Notes under the pieces: model-generated | Told to the model about the DNA's origin: nothing | The model's database searches: none | What the model saw: the letters and a program-made list of their open reading frames with translations, nothing else | Assembly (NCBI GenBank): GCA_022774645.1 | Contig: JALFKQ010000021.1 | Location: 1 to 64,000, forward strand | Direction of reading: 5' to 3' | Length of the DNA: 64,000 bases | Source: Mycoplasmatota bacterium | GTDB taxonomy: Bacteria > Bacillota_I > Bacilli_A > RF39 > UBA660 | Made by a program: the position numbers and the translations under genes | In this document: positions 27,157-46,956 of the stretch, piece by piece | How the letters are laid out: every line of letters begins with the position of its first letter | How positions within the stretch are numbered: the first letter of the stretch is position 1

Positions 27157-29523
27157 ATGAATAAGGTAGTAAATTTTTTACATAAATATCTAGTAATGAT
27201 ATCTTTACTTATTGGCATAAGTATTCTTTTAGGCTTGTCTTATTCAAGCTTTTTCGTATCTTCTGATAATCATAAAGCAGCAGAAATGTATATTGGAGAA
27301 CTAAAGTATTCAATGACAATTGATAATGAATCAAAAAATACTTTAACAGTACCACCTGGTGAAACAATAATAGATTTAACAGTAAATAGTTTAGATCCAG
27401 TAGATACATATTATAAATTATTATATTTAAAAAATTCTAACATTGAAATAAAATATTATGAATCAACAAAAGATACAGATGAAATAGTAACAACATATAG
27501 TAAACCAAATGATTCAATAGTAGCAAATAATTCAAACAATATAAAACTTTTAATAATAAATAATAGTGAAACAGATCAAACAATAGAACTGGTTTTAAAA
27601 GGCGGATATATCACAAATACCTTATCTGATATATCACTACCCACTAATTATAGTGAAATAACAGTTGCAGAAAATACTGAAAACACTTATTTTTGTAAAA
27701 CAACGGATACACTTACAGAAGGACTAAAATATGTTAATAAACAATATACATATTCATATAAGCAAAGTGGTATTAACTCAAATTCCGAACTTGCTTGGAA
27801 TAGTATGAATAATGGATGGGGAGTACAATTAACTGATAAAACAAGCACAGATGCAATAACAAGTAAAGTATGTACATATATAAATAATATACCTATAACA
27901 TCAATGGCTTATATGTTTTATAATAGCAAAGCAACAGTATTAGACGTTAGTAAATTAGATACCCATAATATAGTGAATATGGCAGGAATGTTTCGAGCAA
28001 GTGAAGCAACTGAAATAAATGTAAGTAGTTTTAATACATCAAAAGTTACAGATATGAGTGAGATGTTTTATTACAGCAAAACAACAGTTACAGATGTTAG
28101 TAAATTTGATACAAGTAAAGTTACAAATATGTCTGGAATGTTCTACTATAGTAAGGCAACAGTACTAGATATCAGTAAATTTGATACTAAAAATGTAACT
28201 GATATGAGTTATATGTTTTCAGCGAGTATGGCTACAACATTAGATGTAAGCAATTTTAATACAAGTAAAGTTACAAACATGGGATATATGTTTACTTGGA
28301 GCAATTCAAATATACTTGATGTAAGCAGTTTTGATACAAGCAATGTAACCAATATGGAAAGTATGTTTATGAGTGCATCAGTTACAACACTAGATGTAAA
28401 CAACTTTAATACTAGCAAAGTAACGAGCATGTATAGCATGTTTGAAAATAGTGAGATTACGAATATCAATTTAAGTAGTTTTGATACAAGTAAAGTCACA
28501 AACATGGGACTAATGTTTAGGAAAAGTAAAAGTATAACAATCGACTTAAGTAGTTTTGATACTAGTAATGTTACTAATATGTCAGCAATGTTTTGGGGAA
28601 GTGAAAGTTTAAAAACTATTTATGCAAGCGATAACTTTGTAGTAACTAATGTTGAAGATGACACAAATATGTTTTGGAGATGCTATAGTTTGATAGGCGG
28701 TGCAGGAAGTGCTTATGATAGTACAAAGAAAAGTAAGTTATATGCTCATATAGATGGTGGCACTGCTGATCCTGGATATTTTACTGAAAAAATTTTTGAA
28801 CCAAATTCATTTGCTACAGATAGTTGGAAAACAATAATTAAAGCAGTTAAAGAAAATAATACAAGCAAATATAATTTAGGGGATACTAAAACTATTAATA
28901 TGGGAACCTATGGAACACATACAGTAAGAATAGCAAATACAACAACACCGAGTGAGTGTAGCACAACTGGATTTTCACAAACAGCATGTGGATTTGTACT
29001 TGAGTTTGCAGATATTATAACAAACCATATTATGAATCCATCTGGCACACACAATGGCAAGACATATAGTTTGGGATGGAATGAAGGTGGGTGGCCAGAA
29101 ACTCAAATGAGAACTTTTATAAATAATGATATATATAATAGTTTTCCAACAGAACTACAAAAGGGGATAATTTCAACTACTGTTTTATCTAGCCATGGTG
29201 TAAATGATGCAAACAACTTTACATCAACTGATAAGCTTTATTTGTTATCTGGAAAAGAAATATATGCAGGATTCTCAGATGACTTAGAAACAATAGGAAA
29301 TCTAACACGCCAATTAGATTATTACAAAAAAATAGGGGTAACTGTATCAGATTACTCATCAGCAATAAAGAAAAATGGAGAAACTATTAGCATATGGTGG
29401 CTCCGTTCAGCTGATTCGACATATGGATTTGACTTTACTGCAGTTAATACACAAGGCATTTGGCTTTCATCCCAGGCCGCATACAGCAGTAGTGGAGTAT
29501 CACCAGCATTTAGAATAGGCTAA
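27157..29523 (+). CDS. Large surface protein with nine DUF285 (BspA-type) repeats
   Basis: A 788-residue exported protein. An N-terminal signal-anchor (about residues 12-35) precedes a beta-rich region with prealbumin-like wording (NTLTVPPGETIIDLTV). Then come nine exact-length 25-residue repeats of the form M-x-x-MF...LDVSxFDTSKVTN (residues about 250-475). The C-terminal DUF6273-like domain contains WWLRS and ends SGVSPAFRIG. DUF285 proteins are known adhesin or surface proteins in gut and Mollicute-related bacteria. No LPxTG motif is present, so anchoring is by the N-terminal helix. It is preceded by TTGGAG. Confidence 0.85.
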   Translation: MNKVVNFLHKYLVMISLLIGISILLGLSYSSFFVSSDNHKAAEMYIGELKYSMTIDNESKNTLTVPPGETIIDLTVNSLDPVDTYYKLLYLKNSNIEIKYYESTKDTDEIVTTYSKPNDSIVANNSNNIKLLIINNSETDQTIELVLKGGYITNTLSDISLPTNYSEITVAENTENTYFCKTTDTLTEGLKYVNKQYTYSYKQSGINSNSELAWNSMNNGWGVQLTDKTSTDAITSKVCTYINNIPITSMAYMFYNSKATVLDVSKLDTHNIVNMAGMFRASEATEINVSSFNTSKVTDMSEMFYYSKTTVTDVSKFDTSKVTNMSGMFYYSKATVLDISKFDTKNVTDMSYMFSASMATTLDVSNFNTSKVTNMGYMFTWSNSNILDVSSFDTSNVTNMESMFMSASVTTLDVNNFNTSKVTSMYSMFENSEITNINLSSFDTSKVTNMGLMFRKSKSITIDLSSFDTSNVTNMSAMFWGSESLKTIYASDNFVVTNVEDDTNMFWRCYSLIGGAGSAYDSTKKSKLYAHIDGGTADPGYFTEKIFEPNSFATDSWKTIIKAVKENNTSKYNLGDTKTINMGTYGTHTVRIANTTTPSECSTTGFSQTACGFVLEFADIITNHIMNPSGTHNGKTYSLGWNEGGWPETQMRTFINNDIYNSFPTELQKGIISTTVLSSHGVNDANNFTSTDKLYLLSGKEIYAGFSDDLETIGNLTRQLDYYKKIGVTVSDYSSAIKKNGETISIWWLRSADSTYGFDFTAVNTQGIWLSSQAAYSSSGVSPAFRIG
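27904..28578 (+). repeat. Nine in-frame 75-bp tandem repeats (DUF285)
   Basis: The interval is exactly 9 x 75 bases. Each unit codes for a 25-residue DUF285 module starting at the Met of MxxMF, and a partial tenth unit follows. Units have diverged in their variable positions but keep exact length, so array change by unequal crossing-over would keep the frame. Confidence 0.85.
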
Positions 29524-36595: not shown

Positions 36596-36623
36596 AAAAA
36601 AAAGAAACTTATTTAAAGTTTCT
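36596..36623 (-). terminator. Terminator of the PilB-like gene
   Basis: On the minus strand, an 8-bp stem (36623-36616 with 36610-36603) begins at the stop codon and is followed by eight T residues. Confidence 0.75.
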
Positions 36624-38079
36624 AAAAGTTAAAGTATTCAACCTCACCAGGTTTAACTGTATCATGAGGTATCTCATTATTATGATTTTCTTTATCAGTT
36701 GGAATAAGTGCTGAATAATCAATTATTTCATTATTATTAGTAGTAACTGGTTCAAGAGATACATAATGATCATTGGCTGGGTTAAAATCATCTATTTCTT
36801 GTATATCAGCTTTATTATAATTATGATTTACTTCTTGATTCTCTATATCTTTTATACCAGTTTCTAAATTATCATCTTCATAGTTAGATAAATCATTATC
36901 AAGATCAACAACTTTAAGTATTTCTGAGAATGATGTTTCACCTTCAACAACTTTAGTAAGTCCATCTTGAAGTAGAGTAATAACATCACTTTTATATACT
37001 AACTTTCTAAGTTCATCTTTATGCATATTATTAGTTATAGCATCTCTGATTTCATCATTCATAAGAAGTACTTCTAATATGGCAATTCTGGATGTAAAGC
37101 CTCTAAAACAATGTTCACAACCATCAGGATTAGCATCATACATTTGATCAACATCTTTATGTAAAACTTTCTTAAATACATTTTTTTCATAATCAGAAGT
37201 ATTTCTAAGAACTTTACAATGAGGACATAATTTTCTTGCTAATTTTTGTGAAATAATACCAGTAAGAGCAGAACCAAGCAAATATCTCTCTACATCCATA
37301 TCGGTAAGTCTTTCAATAGTATTTAATGAGTTATTGGTGTGTATTGTAGATAAAACTTTGTGTCCAGTAATTGAAGCTCTAACGGCAATTCTAGCAGTTT
37401 CATCATCACGAATTTCTCCAATCATTATAACATCTGGGTCTTGTCTTAAGATACTTCTTAAAACATTAGCAAATGTAAGACCAATTTCACTTTGAGCTTG
37501 TACTTGATTAATACCAGCTATATCCATTTCTATTGGGTCTTCAACTGTTATAATATTAACAGCTTCAGTATTCATCTTTTGAAGAATAGAGTAAACAGTA
37601 GTTGATTTACCAGAACCAGTAGCTCCAGTAACAAGTATAATACCATTTGGAACACTAATCATTTTATGTATTTTATTTAAACTATCTTCTGAGAAACCTA
37701 AAGTTTCAAGCCCTTGTAAACTCTTTGAATAATCAAGAACACGAATAACGACTTTTTCACCATTATTAGTTGGAAGAGAAGAAACACGAAGATCTAACAT
37801 CTTATCTCCAATTTTAGTTTTAATAGCACCATCTTGTGGAAGTCTTGTTTCCATAATATTCATTTGAGCCATCATTTTTATACGAGATATTAAATTTCTT
37901 TTATATTGACCAGGAATAATAGAGTAATCTGATAAAATACCATCAATACGAATACGAATTCTAATAGCATCTTTTGTTGGATCCATATGGATATCACTAA
38001 CATTTTTTCTAACAGCATCCATTATGATTTCGTTAGCTATTTCAACAATAGGCATTTTTTCAAAATCAAATTCCCTCAT
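36622..38079 (-). CDS. PilB/GspE/ComGA-type assembly ATPase
   Basis: Hexameric secretion ATPase that powers pilus or pseudopilus assembly (485 aa). It has a central N2-type domain (VSDIHMDPTKDAIRIRIRIDG), Walker A GATGSGKST, an Asp box (IMIGEIRDDETARIAVRASITGH) and a CPHC...CEHC zinc loop. The usual N-terminal T2SSE_N domain is missing, so it starts near the N2 domain as in ComGA. A ~90-residue acidic, disordered tail follows the ATPase. It is divergent from the prepilin gene at 38196. No PilC/ComGB-type inner-membrane gene is in this window. Confidence 0.9.
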   Translation of the reverse strand: MREFDFEKMPIVEIANEIIMDAVRKNVSDIHMDPTKDAIRIRIRIDGILSDYSIIPGQYKRNLISRIKMMAQMNIMETRLPQDGAIKTKIGDKMLDLRVSSLPTNNGEKVVIRVLDYSKSLQGLETLGFSEDSLNKIHKMISVPNGIILVTGATGSGKSTTVYSILQKMNTEAVNIITVEDPIEMDIAGINQVQAQSEIGLTFANVLRSILRQDPDVIMIGEIRDDETARIAVRASITGHKVLSTIHTNNSLNTIERLTDMDVERYLLGSALTGIISQKLARKLCPHCKVLRNTSDYEKNVFKKVLHKDVDQMYDANPDGCEHCFRGFTSRIAILEVLLMNDEIRDAITNNMHKDELRKLVYKSDVITLLQDGLTKVVEGETSFSEILKVVDLDNDLSNYEDDNLETGIKDIENQEVNHNYNKADIQEIDDFNPANDHYVSLEPVTTNNNEIIDYSALIPTDKENHNNEIPHDTVKPGEVEYFNF

Positions 38080-38195: not shown

Positions 38196-38636
38196 ATGGA
38201 TAAAAAAGGATTTACCTTAGTAGAATTAATGGTTTCAATATCTATAATGATGTTACTTGCTGTAATGTTAATTCCAGCAATAAACACAGTTAGAAATAAA
38301 GTATTACAACAGTTATATGATGCAAAAATAGAACAAATCCTATCCTCAAGTAAAGCCTGGGGAAGAGATAACTTAATTAGAATACCTCAGTATGTAAATA
38401 GTATATATTATGAAAATGATCAATATAGATATTGTGATTCAGATTGTGCATGTGTATTAGTAAAAGAATTAATAAATCAAGGCTATATAGCAGGAGATTC
38501 TAAAAATAAAACTGAACTTAAAAATCCTCTTGATAAAAAGAGTATGAATAATACCCTTGTTTGTGTAAGATACGATACAAATGATGCTATGACTAGAAAA
38601 ATAGTATCTTATATAGCAGAAGAAGGTATGCATTAA
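38196..38636 (+). CDS. Type IV prepilin-like (pseudopilin) protein
   Basis: A 146-residue class III signal protein. MDKKGFTLVELMVSISI carries the prepilin peptidase site after Gly5 with Phe and Glu at +1 and +5, followed by the hydrophobic polymerisation helix. The head domain has four to five Cys residues (CDSDCACV, LVCVRY) that could form disulfides. It is the first gene after the promoter, upstream of a prolyl-tRNA synthetase, and divergent from the PilB-type ATPase. It probably forms a pseudopilus or competence-type filament. Confidence 0.85.
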   Translation: MDKKGFTLVELMVSISIMMLLAVMLIPAINTVRNKVLQQLYDAKIEQILSSSKAWGRDNLIRIPQYVNSIYYENDQYRYCDSDCACVLVKELINQGYIAGDSKNKTELKNPLDKKSMNNTLVCVRYDTNDAMTRKIVSYIAEEGMH

Positions 38637-40377: not shown

Positions 40378-42456
40378 ATGAAAAAGATAGTAACAATAAT
40401 TATATGTATGTTCTTATCAATAGTTAGTGTTAATGCAATAGTTAGAAACAACTATGCTACTTCAGTAAATAAAACAAATTCATATATAACTAAATTTAAA
40501 GATTATAAAATATTTATTGATCAAGAAGAAACATTACCATATATTTATAATAAAAAAGGCTTATCAAAAAGTGATACTTTTAAAAAATCTGGATTTATTA
40601 GTGTATATGAGTTAATGGCAACACTAGATAAAAATAATCGAACATATTTATTTAATGGTTCTAAATATTGGACTAACACTGAAGAAAATGACAAAATTCA
40701 TATAATAAATGTAAGAACTGATAATGTTAGTGAATTAGTTTCAAAACTTAATGAACAAGAAATGAAACCAACTCAATACATTCTACCTCAAACATTGATA
40801 GTTGGTTCAGGTACACATGAAGATCCTTGGACATTTGTAAAACCAGAATTCAAAATTACTGTAAAAGCATATAATGGAAAAGTTAACGGAAGTGTTAAAA
40901 TTGAAGAAACAATTAATGATTTTGAAAGTGAATATACAATTGCTGCAGATGATCATTATGAATTAAAAAGTGATAATGATATTACATGTAATAATAAAGC
41001 CACAATAATAAATAACAATGGAAAATTACAGTTAAAAAATATAAGAAGTGATTTAACTTGTGAAATAAGATATACTAAAAAAGTATATAATATAACTGTA
41101 AAAGTAAATAATGGAACAGTAAATGGTAAAGAAAGTGAAATATATAATATAGATGCTTTAACTGACAAATCAATACAAATAGAACCACTTCCTGGTTATG
41201 GACTTGTAAAAAGTGATTGTAGTAGCATATATGTTTATGATAATGATATTTTAACTTTTAAAGAAATAAAAGGAAATATAACTTGTGAATTATTCTTTGA
41301 TATAACAAAGAAAGAGTATAAATTTACTGGTAAAGAAGAAGAATATCCAGTACCTGCTGATGGAACTTACACTATAAGTGTTTATGGAGCACAAGGTGGA
41401 GGAGAAAACGGAGGCAAAGGTGGCTTCGTTAAAACTGAAATTAAATTAAATAAAGGCGAAAAATTAAAAATCAATGTTGGTGGTCAAAATGGATATAATG
41501 GTGGAGGAGGTTTTAATAATACGACTTACACACCAGGAGGAGGAGCATCAACAGTAGAATATAATGGAACAAAAATTATAATTGCCGCTGGTGGAGGAGC
41601 TATGGCTCCAGATAAAACTGCTGGTGGAGCTGGTGGTTCTGGAACAGGAGCTGGTGGAGCAAATGCTGGATCAGGTGCTGGACTTGCCGGAACAAACGGT
41701 GGAGGCGGAACTAACAGTATAGATTATAATTATAAATGTAATTGTCAAACATGTGGAGGACAATGTACAGAATACTATCCAACATATGATTGTAATTGCT
41801 CAACTTGTGGTGGAAATTGTACTTCATACTATCCAACATATGATTGTAGATGTTCAACATGTGGAGGCGGATGTAAATCTTATGCTTCAACATATAAATG
41901 CAATTGTTCAACATGCGGAGGACAATGTACTGCATATTATTCAACTTATAGTTGTAACTGTAAAACTTGTAAGGGAAGCTGCAAATCATATAGATGTACA
42001 AAATATTCTTATCAAGGAAATGCAAACTGCTACTGCGGTGGTTTAAGTGCAAACTGTTGTGGATGTACTTGTAGTAGTTACAGTACATATAGTTGTAATT
42101 GTCAAACATGCGGTGGAGGTTGCAAATCTTATGCCGCAACATACGATTGTAATTGTTCAACATGTGGAGGAGGATGCACATCATATTATCCAGAATATGA
42201 ATGTAATTGTTCAACATGTGGAGGAGGATGTAAATCTTATTCAGCAGAATACGAATGTAACTGTAAAACATGTGGAGGAGGTTGCAAAACTTATGCTGCA
42301 ACATATGAATGTAATTGTAAGAGATGTACTACAAATGGAAAACCAGGACAAGGTGGTAAAAATAGCACATCCGGGACACAAACAGTGTTAAGCAATGTAT
42401 CTGGAAATAGAAGTGGAAACGGATACATATTAATAGAATTTAAGGAGGCAAGTTAA
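40378..42456 (+). CDS. Secreted Gly-rich protein with nine CxCxxCxxxC repeats
   Basis: A 692-residue exported protein I do not recognise as a known family. A signal peptide (about residues 1-21) precedes a region with two FxITVKAYNGKVNGS / YNITVKVNNGTVNG modules (Listeria-Bacteroides/Bacterial repeat-like). A glycine-rich domain of the type found with receptor-kinase ALK proteins follows (YTISVYGAQGGGENGGKGGF...). Inside the glycine-rich part lies an array of 18-residue Cys units (residues ~452-650), each C-x-C-x-x-C-G-G-x-C plus SY. The protein closes with GNGYILIEF, the usual end of the glycine-rich domain. The unit spacing suggests disulfide or metal binding. Confidence 0.75.
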   Translation: MKKIVTIIICMFLSIVSVNAIVRNNYATSVNKTNSYITKFKDYKIFIDQEETLPYIYNKKGLSKSDTFKKSGFISVYELMATLDKNNRTYLFNGSKYWTNTEENDKIHIINVRTDNVSELVSKLNEQEMKPTQYILPQTLIVGSGTHEDPWTFVKPEFKITVKAYNGKVNGSVKIEETINDFESEYTIAADDHYELKSDNDITCNNKATIINNNGKLQLKNIRSDLTCEIRYTKKVYNITVKVNNGTVNGKESEIYNIDALTDKSIQIEPLPGYGLVKSDCSSIYVYDNDILTFKEIKGNITCELFFDITKKEYKFTGKEEEYPVPADGTYTISVYGAQGGGENGGKGGFVKTEIKLNKGEKLKINVGGQNGYNGGGGFNNTTYTPGGGASTVEYNGTKIIIAAGGGAMAPDKTAGGAGGSGTGAGGANAGSGAGLAGTNGGGGTNSIDYNYKCNCQTCGGQCTEYYPTYDCNCSTCGGNCTSYYPTYDCRCSTCGGGCKSYASTYKCNCSTCGGQCTAYYSTYSCNCKTCKGSCKSYRCTKYSYQGNANCYCGGLSANCCGCTCSSYSTYSCNCQTCGGGCKSYAATYDCNCSTCGGGCTSYYPEYECNCSTCGGGCKSYSAEYECNCKTCGGGCKTYAATYECNCKRCTTNGKPGQGGKNSTSGTQTVLSNVSGNRSGNGYILIEFKEAS
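41731..42327 (+). repeat. Array of 54-bp (18-residue) Cys-rich repeats
   Basis: Four units run from 41731 with exact 54-base spacing, a diverged middle stretch with extra Cys residues follows, then four more canonical units and a partial last one (ends at CKRC). Typical unit: Y-x-CNCSTCGGGC-x-SY. Each adds four Cys residues. Confidence 0.8.
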
Positions 42457-42863
42457 TGAAAAAAGGATTATTAATTTCACTAGTATGCATCTTATTAATA
42501 ACAGGATGTAATGAAAAAACAAATAATAATGGAGATAAAGATAAGAATAAAACACCAGTTGTAAAAAAGCTTACACAAGAAGAAATTAATTTAAAATATG
42601 ATGAAATGAAATCTAAATTAATTGAATATGGAAAATTAATTTATGAAAATGATACATGGACTAAAGGAAATGTACAAGTAATGACATATCACATGAGTTT
42701 AAAAGAAATGCAAGACATAAATAAATATGATATTTCAATGTTTATTAATCCAGAAACTGGAAAACAATGTGATTTAGAAAAAACAAAAATTGAATTTGTT
42801 GTTAAAAGTTCAACATCAACAAAAACAGAATATTCATTTAATCCAGTTGTAGTATGTGAGTAA
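42456..42863 (+). CDS. Lipoprotein, unknown (paralogue A)
   Basis: A 135-residue protein with a lipoprotein signal (LLITGC lipobox) and a small mixed domain (YGKLIYENDTWTKGN, then YHMSLKEMQDIN, then KTEYSFNPVVVCE). It starts on the last base of the Cys-repeat gene's stop codon, indicating tight coupling. It resembles the next gene in order of motifs, so the two are tandem paralogues. Role unknown; perhaps it assists display of the secreted repeat protein. Confidence 0.75.
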   Translation: MKKGLLISLVCILLITGCNEKTNNNGDKDKNKTPVVKKLTQEEINLKYDEMKSKLIEYGKLIYENDTWTKGNVQVMTYHMSLKEMQDINKYDISMFINPETGKQCDLEKTKIEFVVKSSTSTKTEYSFNPVVVCE

Positions 42864-42865
42864 AT

Positions 42866-43240
42866 ATGAAAAAAGTTTTACTAATACTTATAACAATATT
42901 ATTGTTAACTGGTTGCTCATCAAAAAATGAAACTACAGAAGAAATAATAACAACTAAACCAGTAGTTGATAAAAAAGAAAAGTTAACTGAAGCTGAAAAT
43001 ATATTACTTAATTATGGAAAATTAATATATGAAACAGAAGAGTGGCAAAATATTAATTTAGAAATCAAAACATATGAAACTACTCTTAAAGAAATGAATG
43101 AGGTTAATGGTTTTGATATATCAGCATTTAATAACTATATTAAATGTGATGTTGATACAACTAAAATACAATATATTGTAGAAGGAAAAGAAGAAGGAAA
43201 ACTAATAACTAGATTAAATCCAGTATTAGATTGCAAATAA
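42866..43240 (+). CDS. Lipoprotein, unknown (paralogue B)
   Basis: A 124-residue lipoprotein (LLLTGC lipobox). It shares with the preceding lipoprotein the layout LxxYGKLIYExxxW, a YxxxLKEMxxxN segment, then CDxxxTKI and a C-terminal NPVxxC. It starts 2 bases after paralogue A stops. It ends the prepilin-proS-Cys-repeat-lipoprotein run; a weak hairpin with a GAAA loop and T run follows. Confidence 0.75.
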   Translation: MKKVLLILITILLLTGCSSKNETTEEIITTKPVVDKKEKLTEAENILLNYGKLIYETEEWQNINLEIKTYETTLKEMNEVNGFDISAFNNYIKCDVDTTKIQYIVEGKEEGKLITRLNPVLDCK

Positions 43241-43330: not shown

Positions 43331-44566
43331 TTGAACCCAATAAATGTTAAAAGTGAAATTGGAACATTAAAAAAAGTTCTTGTACATAGACCAGGTCGTG
43401 AATTATTAAATCTTACACCTGATAGCTTAGAAAGACTTTTATTTGATGATATTCCATATTTACCAGTTGCTCAAGAAGAGCATGATGAATTCGTAAGGAT
43501 TTTAAGAGATAATGGAGTAGAAGTTGTATATTTAGAAGACTTAATGACTGAGGTTTTAGATACTAATCCAGAAATAAGAGAAAGATTTATTACTCAATTT
43601 ATTTATGAAGCTGGAATTAGAACACCTAAATATCGTAGTTTAGTTTATGAATATTTAAGTTCTATCGAAAATAATAGATTATTAGTTTTAAAAACAATGG
43701 AAGGTATTGTTAATAATGAAGTAATCAAATCAAAAGCTAAAAAAGGAAAAAGCTTAGTTGATTTTATTGAAGATGATACTGCATTTGTAGTAGATCCAAT
43801 GCCAAACTTATATTTTACAAGAGATCCATTTGCTTCAATCGGAAATGGTGTTTCATTAAATAGAATGTATTCTGTAACTAGAAACAGAGAAACTATTTAT
43901 GCTGAATATATATTTGAATATCATCCAGAATATAAAGGACTTGTTGATAAATATTTTGACAGATATAGTGCATATCATATTGAAGGTGGAGATGTACTTA
44001 ACTTAAATGAACACATTTTAGCAGTAGGTATTTCTCAAAGAACAAGTGCTGATGCAATAGAAGAACTTGCTCATAAAATATTTGAAGACAAAGATGCTAA
44101 AATAAATACAATATTGGCATTTGATATACCAGTATGCCGTGCATTTATGCATTTAGATACAGTATTCACTCAAATAGATAAGGATAAATTTACTTATCAC
44201 CCAGGTATAATGGGGACACTTAGAGTTTATGAAATAACTAGCGATGGTGAAGACGGACTTAATGTAAAGGAAAAGAATGCTTCACTTGAAAGAATATTAG
44301 AAGAATATTTAGAAAGAAAAATAACTTTAATTCCTTGTGCTGGTGGAGACAAAATCGGAGCTGAAAGAGAACAATGGAATGATGGAAGTAATACATTATG
44401 TATAGCACCAGGAGTAGTAATTGTTTATGATAGAAATAATATTACAAATGAATTATTAAGAGATAATGGAATTAAAGTACTAGAAATGCATAGTGCAGAG
44501 TTATCAAGAGGAAGAGGTGGACCTAGATGTATGTCAATGCCACTACAAAGAAGCGATAAGATATGA
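43331..44566 (+). CDS. arcA: Arginine deiminase
   Basis: Hydrolyses arginine to citrulline and ammonia, the first step of the deiminase pathway (411 aa). Motifs: VLVHRPGRELLNLTPD, FTRDPFASIGNGVSLN, HIEGGDVLNL and the catalytic-Cys C-terminus RGRGGPRCMSMPL. The start is TTG 43331 behind GGGAGGG. It overlaps the carbamate kinase start by the ATGA tetranucleotide. The middle enzyme of the pathway, ornithine carbamoyltransferase, is not between arcA and arcC and is not in this window. Confidence 0.95.
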   Translation: MNPINVKSEIGTLKKVLVHRPGRELLNLTPDSLERLLFDDIPYLPVAQEEHDEFVRILRDNGVEVVYLEDLMTEVLDTNPEIRERFITQFIYEAGIRTPKYRSLVYEYLSSIENNRLLVLKTMEGIVNNEVIKSKAKKGKSLVDFIEDDTAFVVDPMPNLYFTRDPFASIGNGVSLNRMYSVTRNRETIYAEYIFEYHPEYKGLVDKYFDRYSAYHIEGGDVLNLNEHILAVGISQRTSADAIEELAHKIFEDKDAKINTILAFDIPVCRAFMHLDTVFTQIDKDKFTYHPGIMGTLRVYEITSDGEDGLNVKEKNASLERILEEYLERKITLIPCAGGDKIGAEREQWNDGSNTLCIAPGVVIVYDRNNITNELLRDNGIKVLEMHSAELSRGRGGPRCMSMPLQRSDKI

Positions 44567-46956
44567 AAACAATTGTAGTAGCACTTGGTGGAAATGCTCT
44601 TGGCAATACACCAGAAGAACAATTAAAATTAGTTAAAAACACAGCTAAATCAATAGTTGATTTAGTAAGTGAAGGTTATAATGTAGTAGTAAGCCATGGT
44701 AATGGACCTCAAGTTGGAATGATAAATCTAGCTTTTGAAGTTTCGCATGAAAGTAAAAGTGGTACTCCTGAAATACCATTTCCAGAATGTGGAGCAATGA
44801 GTCAAGGCTACATAGGTTATCATTTACAACAAGCAATTCAATGTGAATTGAAAGCAAGAAATATCAATAGAAATTGTGCATCAGTAGTGACACAAGTTCT
44901 TGTTGATAAAAAAGATCCTGCTTTTAATAAACCAGAAAAACCAGTAGGAATGTTTTATACCGAATCTGAAGCTAAGAAAATAGAAAAAGAAAAAGGTTAT
45001 ACATTCGTCGAAGATTCTGGAAGAGGTTATAGGAGAGTTGTACCTTCTCCTAAACCTATTGAAATAATAGAACTTGATTTAATTAAAGACCTGTTAAGTC
45101 AAGGTAATATTGTTATAGCATCTGGTGGTGGTGGAATCCCAGTTGTGCGTGAAAAAAACACCTATGTAGGAGTAGATGCAGTAATTGATAAAGATAGATC
45201 TAGTAGCTTACTAGCAAGAGAATTAAATGCTGATGTTTTACTTATATTAACTACGGTGGAAACAGTTTCACTTAAATATAACACAATTGATCAAGTAAGT
45301 TTACGAGACTTAGATATAAGTGATGCAAAAAAATATATCAAGGCTGGTGAATTTGCAAAAGGAAGTATGCTTCCAAAAGTAGAATCATGTGTAGATTTTT
45401 GTGAATTTAATAAAGAAGGAAAAGGTATTATCACTTCTCTTGAATGTGCAAGAGAAGCACTTCTAAATGAAACAGGTACAATAATAACAAATAGTCAAAA
45501 AGGAGGCAAAAAGATGGCTAAAACAAAGAAAAAAAGAGAGAGAATGTCCGCATTCACTATCATCATTTTACTTACTATTATAGTAGCCTTAGTAACATTA
45601 ATATTACCTTCAGCAAAATTTGATGCAGCAGGTAACATCATTAATGGTTCAGGAGTAGTTGCAGCAAAATTATCTGATGTACTACTAGCTCCAATAAAAG
45701 GCTTTGAAAATGCTGTTGATGTTTGTGTGTTCGTTCTAGTTCTTGGTGGCTTTTTACAAATTGTCACAAAGACAGGGGCTTTGGAAAATGGTATTAAGGT
45801 CTTAGTTAAAAAATTAAAAGGAAATGAATTAGTATTAATTCCAATACTAATGATTATCTTCTCAATAGGTGGAACAACTTATGGAATGATGGAAGAAACA
45901 GTTGGTTTCTATGCACTTCTAGCATTTACTATGGTAGCTGCTGGTATGGATACAATTGTTGCATCAGCAACAGTATTGTTAGGTGCAGGATGTGGTGTTT
46001 TAGGTTCAACTATTAACCCATTCGCAACAGGAGCTGCAGTAGCTGCACTTCCAAAAGGATTAACTGTTAATCAAGGAATTTTAATTGCACTTGGTGCAGT
46101 ATTATGGTTAGTATCACTTGGAATTTCAATTTTCTATGTAATGAGATATGCAAAAAAAGTTAAAGATGATAAAGGTTCAACTTTCTTATCATTACAAGAA
46201 CAAAAGAAAATGGAAAAATTCAATGAGAAAGATTCTTCAAAAGAAGCTGTTCTTACAGGAATGCAAAAAACAACATTATGGATTTTTGGTATTACATTCC
46301 TTGTAATGATCGTAGGATTTATTCCTTGGGGCGAATTCAATATTACATTCTTCGATTCATGGACTGGATGGTTAACTGGTTCACCTTTAGGTAAGTGGTA
46401 TTTCTATGAATCAGCTGCTTGGTTCTTAATTGTTGGTATCTTAATTGGATACATTAATAAATTTACAACAAATCAAATTATAGATGAATTCATTGCAGGA
46501 GCAAGAGATATCTTATCTGTTGTACTTATTATTGCAGTAGCTCGTGGTGTTAAAGTATTAATGGAAACAACAATGTTAGATAATTATATTATTTACAATG
46601 TTGCAGATGCATTAAAAGGAACACCTGTAGCATTATTTACACCATGTAACTATATTCTACATATATTATTATCAGTACTTGTACCATCTAGTTCAGGTTT
46701 AGCAACAATATCTACACCAATTATGGCTCCACTTGCACATCAACTTGGTTATAGTGTTGAAACAACAATTATGACATTTGTTGCTGCAAATGGACTTGTT
46801 AACTTATTTACCCCAACATGTGGTGCAATAATGGGTGGTTTAGCATTAGCTAAAGTTAACTACACTACATGGTTAAAATGGGCTATGAAGTTATTAGTTC
46901 TTATTGGTTTATCATCAATGGTAATACTTACATTTGCATCAGTAATATTATCATAG
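44563..46956 (+). CDS. Carbamate kinase fused in frame to a YfcC-type arginine/ornithine transporter
   Basis: One continuous 797-residue frame. Residues 1-~311 are ArcC carbamate kinase (VALGGNALG, VVSHGNGPQVG, SGGGGIPV, ALLNETGTIIT), making ATP from carbamoyl phosphate. Residues ~318-797 are a YfcC/DcuC-type carrier with ten or more membrane spans (IIILLTIIVALVTLILPSA..., GAGCGVLGSTINPFATGAA, VPSSSGLATISTPIMAPL). The join reads ITNSQKGGKKMAKTKKK, and a full AGGAGG site with ATG 45514 is retained at it. So either a fusion protein, an independent transporter, or both are made. The transporter would exchange arginine for ornithine. Confidence 0.88.
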   Translation: MKTIVVALGGNALGNTPEEQLKLVKNTAKSIVDLVSEGYNVVVSHGNGPQVGMINLAFEVSHESKSGTPEIPFPECGAMSQGYIGYHLQQAIQCELKARNINRNCASVVTQVLVDKKDPAFNKPEKPVGMFYTESEAKKIEKEKGYTFVEDSGRGYRRVVPSPKPIEIIELDLIKDLLSQGNIVIASGGGGIPVVREKNTYVGVDAVIDKDRSSSLLARELNADVLLILTTVETVSLKYNTIDQVSLRDLDISDAKKYIKAGEFAKGSMLPKVESCVDFCEFNKEGKGIITSLECAREALLNETGTIITNSQKGGKKMAKTKKKRERMSAFTIIILLTIIVALVTLILPSAKFDAAGNIINGSGVVAAKLSDVLLAPIKGFENAVDVCVFVLVLGGFLQIVTKTGALENGIKVLVKKLKGNELVLIPILMIIFSIGGTTYGMMEETVGFYALLAFTMVAAGMDTIVASATVLLGAGCGVLGSTINPFATGAAVAALPKGLTVNQGILIALGAVLWLVSLGISIFYVMRYAKKVKDDKGSTFLSLQEQKKMEKFNEKDSSKEAVLTGMQKTTLWIFGITFLVMIVGFIPWGEFNITFFDSWTGWLTGSPLGKWYFYESAAWFLIVGILIGYINKFTTNQIIDEFIAGARDILSVVLIIAVARGVKVLMETTMLDNYIIYNVADALKGTPVALFTPCNYILHILLSVLVPSSSGLATISTPIMAPLAHQLGYSVETTIMTFVAANGLVNLFTPTCGAIMGGLALAKVNYTTWLKWAMKLLVLIGLSSMVILTFASVILS
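45499..45516 (+). promoter_or_regulatory. Internal ribosome-binding site and ATG within the arcC-arcD fusion
   Basis: AAAGGAGG (to 45506), 7-base gap and ATG at 45514, at the exact boundary between kinase and transporter. In an ordinary arcC-arcD pair this would be the start of the transporter gene. The only thing missing is a stop codon for arcC in the same frame. Confidence 0.75.

Follow-up and report, generated by a model that had tools for sequence, protein, structure and literature searches.

A variable cysteine-rich cassette interrupts the predicted ALK-type glycine-rich domain of a secreted protein from an uncultured lineage of Bacilli

The stretch of DNA analysed here, in the following referred to as the window, comprises 64,000 nucleotides from a Mycoplasmatota bacterium whose genome (1.4 Mb in 36 contigs) falls within a group of small uncultured Bacilli. 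The gene under study is an intact open reading frame with an ATG start, and its borders at 40378-42456 proved to be correct. The encoded protein, its parts and the neighbouring genes are listed in Table 1. The protein contains 51 Cys residues, of which 46 are located in the segment of residues 450-655 and one (C10) in the signal peptide. Unlike the pilin-like neighbour encoded at 38196-38636, it gave no match to the prepilin N-terminal methylation motif (N_methyl) in Pfam. Two further genes of the window were recorded: a single ORF of 797 aa directly after the arginine deiminase gene (44563-46956), which is apparently a fusion of a carbamate kinase and an arginine/ornithine-type membrane transporter, and a gene for a surface-type protein in which four DUF285 stretches are combined with a DUF6273 domain (27157-29523).

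Table 1. Features of the Cys protein gene and its neighbourhood (positions in the window).
Feature	Position	Strand	Remarks
Type II/IV secretion (pilus assembly) ATPase	36622..38079	-	PF00437
Type IV pilin-like protein	38196..38636	+	PF07963; same gene string, upstream
Cys protein ORF, 692 aa	40378..42456	+	Signal peptide, N-terminal domain, two beta repeats, ALK-type TG fold with Cys cassette; secreted
Signal peptide, ~residues 1-23	40378..40446	+	Read from sequence; without lipobox and prepilin motif
N-terminal domain, ends in GSGTxxDPWxF	40447..40842	+	Common to many surface proteins of the genus with different C-termini
Two beta repeats	40843..41307	+	pLDDT ~85; one Cys pair each (204/228, 281/303)
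ALK/LTK-type glycine-rich (TG) domain, proximal part	41308..41724	+	PF12810; Z 12.8 to 7nx1
Cys cassette, 46 Cys	41725..42330	+	Nine CxCxxCxxxC units, Cys-dense centre, terminal CNCKRC
Cassette units 1-5, 54 bp each	41737..42006	+	Motif and unit comparison; unit 5 diverged
Diverged Cys-dense centre, residues ~541-572	42007..42093	+	After unit 5
Cassette units 6-9	42094..42309	+	Motif and unit comparison
TG domain, distal part (GKPGQGG ... SGNGYILIEF)	42331..42453	+	Last sandwich strand; structure alignment
Companion lipoprotein 1, family A6	42456..42863	+	One-base overlap between its start and the stop of the upstream Cys protein gene
Companion lipoprotein 2, family A6	42866..43240	+	Tandem paralogue of lipoprotein 1
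Arginine deiminase gene	43331..44566	+	Named from sequence; synteny marker also at L009/L035

A first-pass annotation, made from the sequence alone, had described a run of nine 18-residue CxCxxCxxxC repeats with four Cys in a fixed pattern and a diverged, Cys-dense central stretch. This description was borne out: nine in-register motifs were counted, with unit starts at residues 454, 472, 490, 508, 526, 573, 591, 609 and 627, so that five units are followed by the Cys-dense centre, four further units and a closing half unit (CNCKRC). All 36 Cys of the units are invariant, as are T5, G8 and Y13, and the 206 residues of the segment 450-655 include 46 Cys and 28 Tyr but no His. The period of 54 bp was detected in both half-arrays with Tandem Repeats Finder. 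In contrast to the earlier claim of near-exact 54-bp units, the pairwise DNA identity of the units is only 52-87% (mean 71%). The differences fall on third codon positions in 259 of 563 cases, and in 50 of 144 comparisons of unit Cys codons TGT and TGC are switched, with Cys kept every time. Divergence at the DNA level together with synonymous drift of the Cys codons indicates that the array is old and under selection for Cys. Units diverged to this extent are at odds with a recent expansion and with an assembly collapse, and the suspicion of an assembly artefact was dispelled by the diverged units and by the occurrence of the same architecture in independent assemblies.

The array had not been recognised as part of a described family, and searches of Pfam, NCBIfam and the PDB sequences likewise yielded no family describing it. 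The pattern of the 18-residue unit and a profile of the unit matched only the genome of the window among 385 order-level and 395 class-level genomes, which shows that the unit is not a widespread domain. No match was obtained by a scan of genome contigs with a single protein or by tblastn against phages and plasmids, the latter being a weak negative because the low-complexity filter was active.

The placement of the array in an ALK-type glycine-rich domain, proposed initially, held as well. The protein matches PF12810 (ALK_LTK_GRD) with 25.7 bits against a Pfam cut-off of 24.5. Residues 310-692 of an AlphaFold model, which is of low confidence in the glycine-rich core, aligned with 7nx1 over 150 residues at Z 12.8 and 3.2 Å. 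The LTK/ALK TG structures 7nx1, 7nx3 and 7lrz reached Z values of about 12-13, whereas unrelated entries remained below 7; the glycine-rich, TG-like head of the cyanophage Pam3 fibre (7ypx) aligned with Z 9.1, a lower similarity than that of ALK/LTK. Due to the fact that the alignment spans both sides of the array and includes the last strand after it, the array is regarded as an insertion within the TG fold. The model was built from four sequences, and good confidence is confined to residues 156-322 and to portions of the TG fold. The array had no confident fold in it (pLDDT ~40), and no separate match was listed for the array by VIA-align with this low-quality model. A model of the array alone, built from two half-arrays, reached a pLDDT of 42 and was rejected as evidence of a fold. 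The window protein thus shares the profile match and the predicted fold of the ALK/LTK TG supradomain but is bacterial and secreted, and its glycine-rich part is interrupted by a Cys cassette of about 200 residues. The transmembrane segment and the kinase domain of the ALK/LTK receptors are absent, the 692-aa ORF ending at the glycine-rich domain.

Among 18 genomes of the same genus, 15 match the window protein, mostly via the N-terminal domain alone. This domain is joined to other Cys-rich C-termini resembling EGF or TNFR-type CxxC sequences at five loci (L010, L013, L018, L027, L033), and a paralogue of it in the same genome (L004, G000 contig C16) carries stretches rich in Thr and Pro as well as short CxSIxxSxxCxxxxGCIWRxxxCY repeats. 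Full-length homologues were found in genome G002, where two lie in tandem, in G001, and in the window genome itself, which has a paralogue on contig C22. Of the two named relatives, one derives from goat caecum and the other is a Tenericutes MAG taken to be from an anaerobic digester. Additionally, the glycine-rich subtype of the window protein, together with a Cys insert, occurs on a type IV pilin of another genus (G073). When the window protein was aligned with five other carriers, namely the paralogue in its own genome, three congeneric proteins and the type IV pilin of the other genus, unlike Cys inserts were located between the same conserved glycine-rich blocks in all six. The inserts vary from 66 to 206 aa and from 12 to 46 Cys and have different motifs. 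Few genomes encode the glycine-rich subtype: 3 of 385 at the order level and 2 of 392 at the phylum level. The type IV pilins L039, L044, L051, L052 and L055, encoded within the same bacterial family, have the same glycine-rich domain as the window protein but a prepilin N-terminus in place of its signal peptide; L039 carries a Cys insert at the slot of the window protein, whereas most of the pilin-borne domains are without one. Searches of the open-access literature yielded no account of Cys inserts in bacterial PF12810 proteins. The ALK-type scaffold is known, and the cassette system represents a new variation on it.

The cassettes and the remaining parts of these proteins have diverged to different degrees. 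Between the members of the G002 tandem pair, identity falls from 81% at the N-terminus through 61% in the glycine-rich part to 39% in the cassette; at identical residues of the N-terminus the third-position identity is 0.87, and divergence is saturated from about residue 310 onward. The comparison of G001 with the second protein of this pair (G002b) gave 36% for the N-terminus, 56% for the glycine-rich part (76% in its distal part) and 68% for the cassette. The third positions are saturated in this comparison, which points to an old age of both cassette types. The locus in G001 shares the gene order of the window (lipoprotein gene, then the arginine deiminase gene arcA) yet carries the other cassette type. 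Judged from these sequences, either module recombination or gene conversion with differential loss among old tandem copies may have produced the pattern, and under both routes head and cassette would behave as one unit separable from the N-terminus.

A companion lipoprotein of family A6 adjoins every resolved cassette gene. Homologues of A6 are adjacent to the C22 paralogue (in two copies), to the G002 pair and to the G073 pilin. An A6 profile applied to 18 genomes of the genus and 193 of the family gave full-length matches only at the loci just named, in G001 (adjacent) and in G042, where the contig (L176) begins 307 bp upstream of the lipoprotein gene and cuts off its neighbour. In G205 a double copy matches the C-terminal two thirds of the profile. 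The associations in G001 and G205 are independent of the building of the model. The operon in G205, a different species (L177, 3647-8469), encodes a type IV pilin whose tail is dense in Cys and which lacks a glycine-rich domain, followed by the double lipoprotein-like protein, and therefore the partner seems to track the Cys segment and not the glycine-rich domain. The same gene string includes two membrane proteins that are thioredoxin-like (motifs CAYC and CTYC) and whose Pfam scores are below the cut-off. No Pfam family is common to the A6 members, and a match of lipoprotein 1 to T9SS_plug was discarded since it was merely at the cut-off and absent from the rest of the family. A6 is a previously unnamed family of small lipoproteins.

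A search with the pattern of one unit also matched contigs of uncultivated phages. The phage carriers (L085-L092, L192, L188, L197, L227, L179, L074) keep their scaffold constant and carry a Cys cassette that varies and is flanked by CNCxTC at both ends, although the search pattern demanded just one of these ends. On the single contig that was examined, the carrier gene adjoins a tail-fibre gene. No match to PF12810, to another Pfam family or to PHROG was obtained for the carriers tested. The window cassette opens with CNCQTC and closes with CNCKRC, whereas the phage bracket is CNCxTC at both ends. The L085 insert resembles the window array with z 6.2 over the full length and z 5.3 at the end outside the pattern, and neither value was reached in 2000 shuffles which preserved Cys positions and composition. 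The grammar of the phage cassettes (L085, L192, L188, L197, L227, L179), which are variable and even in Cys number, is similar to that of the window, but the scaffold is unrelated and the sources differ. The likeness may reflect convergence or a shared module. Giardia variant surface proteins likewise have diverse surface ectodomains rich in Cys motifs; they are eukaryotic, CxxC-based and without a glycine-rich scaffold, and their likeness to the window protein serves as a lead only.

The number of Cys per cassette bears on the initial suggestion that the array forms disulfide rungs or binds metal. Seven bacterial cassettes contain 46, 14, 26, 32, 18, 12 and 12 Cys, an even number in each case, and the phage inserts likewise have even counts. 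Random parity would give seven even counts with a chance of 1/128 if the cassettes were independent. Their independence is only partial, the sequences being partly related, and the cassette borders were set by eye. The whole mature protein G002a has an odd number of Cys (37), one additional Cys lying outside its cassette. Since the counts are even and several of them (46, 14, 26, 18) are not divisible by four, pairing of the cassette Cys as disulfides is favoured over Zn(Cys)4 sites, and the suggestion is thereby weighted towards its disulfide half. A metal-binding array, in which the four thiolates of each CxCxxCxxxC unit would hold a Zn, Cu or Fe ion, serving to store metal at the surface or forming a metal-folded stalk, is considered unlikely. 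It would account for the four Cys of each unit and their CxC and CxxC spacing, it is consistent with a weak match of a phage cassette to the RING-type zinc domain of plant cellulose synthase (1weo, E 0.0034), and neither DsbA nor VKOR was found in the window genome, which encodes two CPHC thioredoxin-fold proteins of uncertain topology. The habitat is probably anaerobic, and extracellular disulfides are less certain there. Apart from the Cys counts, the absence of His from the window cassette, the thioredoxin-like genes in the related operon and the secretion of the protein argue against metal, and no family match of metallothionein type was obtained for the window protein in Pfam or NCBIfam.

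It appears still less probable that the array is a structural cross-linker that connects adjacent molecules covalently, as a layer on the surface or a pilus-associated matrix, with no specific ligand. The richness in Tyr and Cys and the existence of pilin fusions and of a lipoprotein partner would suit such a role, but even Cys counts suggest self-contained pairing, and the high diversity of the cassette on a constant scaffold would be unusual for a structural part. A relaxed, drifting low-complexity insert, functionless in itself and accommodated by a flexible loop within the glycine-rich domain, would explain the fast sequence change between relatives, the easy expansion of repeats and a unit type private to the window genome among those searched, but is very improbable given the retention of the unit Cys through synonymous codon drift, the 68% identity of the G001 and G002b cassettes at saturated third positions and the even Cys counts throughout.

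The reading preferred here, to which a probability of about 50% is assigned, is that of a variable tip for adhesion or recognition, exchangeable and crosslinked by disulfides, on an ALK-type head with a lipoprotein partner. The protein would be exported and fold into the N-terminal domain, the two beta repeats and an ALK-type, TNF-like/glycine-rich head, one loop of which would be replaced by the Cys cassette. Outside the cell the Cys would pair as disulfides, and in the window species the nine 18-residue rungs would form a rigid, repetitive knob or ribbon. Head and cassette would constitute an exchangeable module, related genes retaining the scaffold and swapping the cassette. Because the scaffold is retained while the cassettes are swapped, the cassette is most likely a variable surface contacting something external, for which host mucus or glycan, another cell or a phage are candidates. 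The probable role of the small lipoprotein encoded alongside is to anchor the secreted protein at the membrane or to assist it there. Only tentatively, and at less than even odds, this reading may be widened to include the phage proteins: CNCxTC-bracketed, even-Cys, Tyr-rich cassettes with variable interiors would then be general plug-in, disulfide-stiffened recognition modules on unrelated beta scaffolds, both at the bacterial surface or pilus and in association with phage tails, the bacterial ones having a dedicated lipoprotein partner.

If the preferred reading is true, these genes would provide an uncultured lineage of gut and digester with a concrete set of variable proteins for surface recognition that can be tested, and the ALK-type head would be a bacterial scaffold for swappable cassettes. 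It would moreover raise the question of whether the same type of disulfide-stiffened variable loop is used in phage tails and in bacteria. The lipoprotein family provides a handle for locating further such systems.
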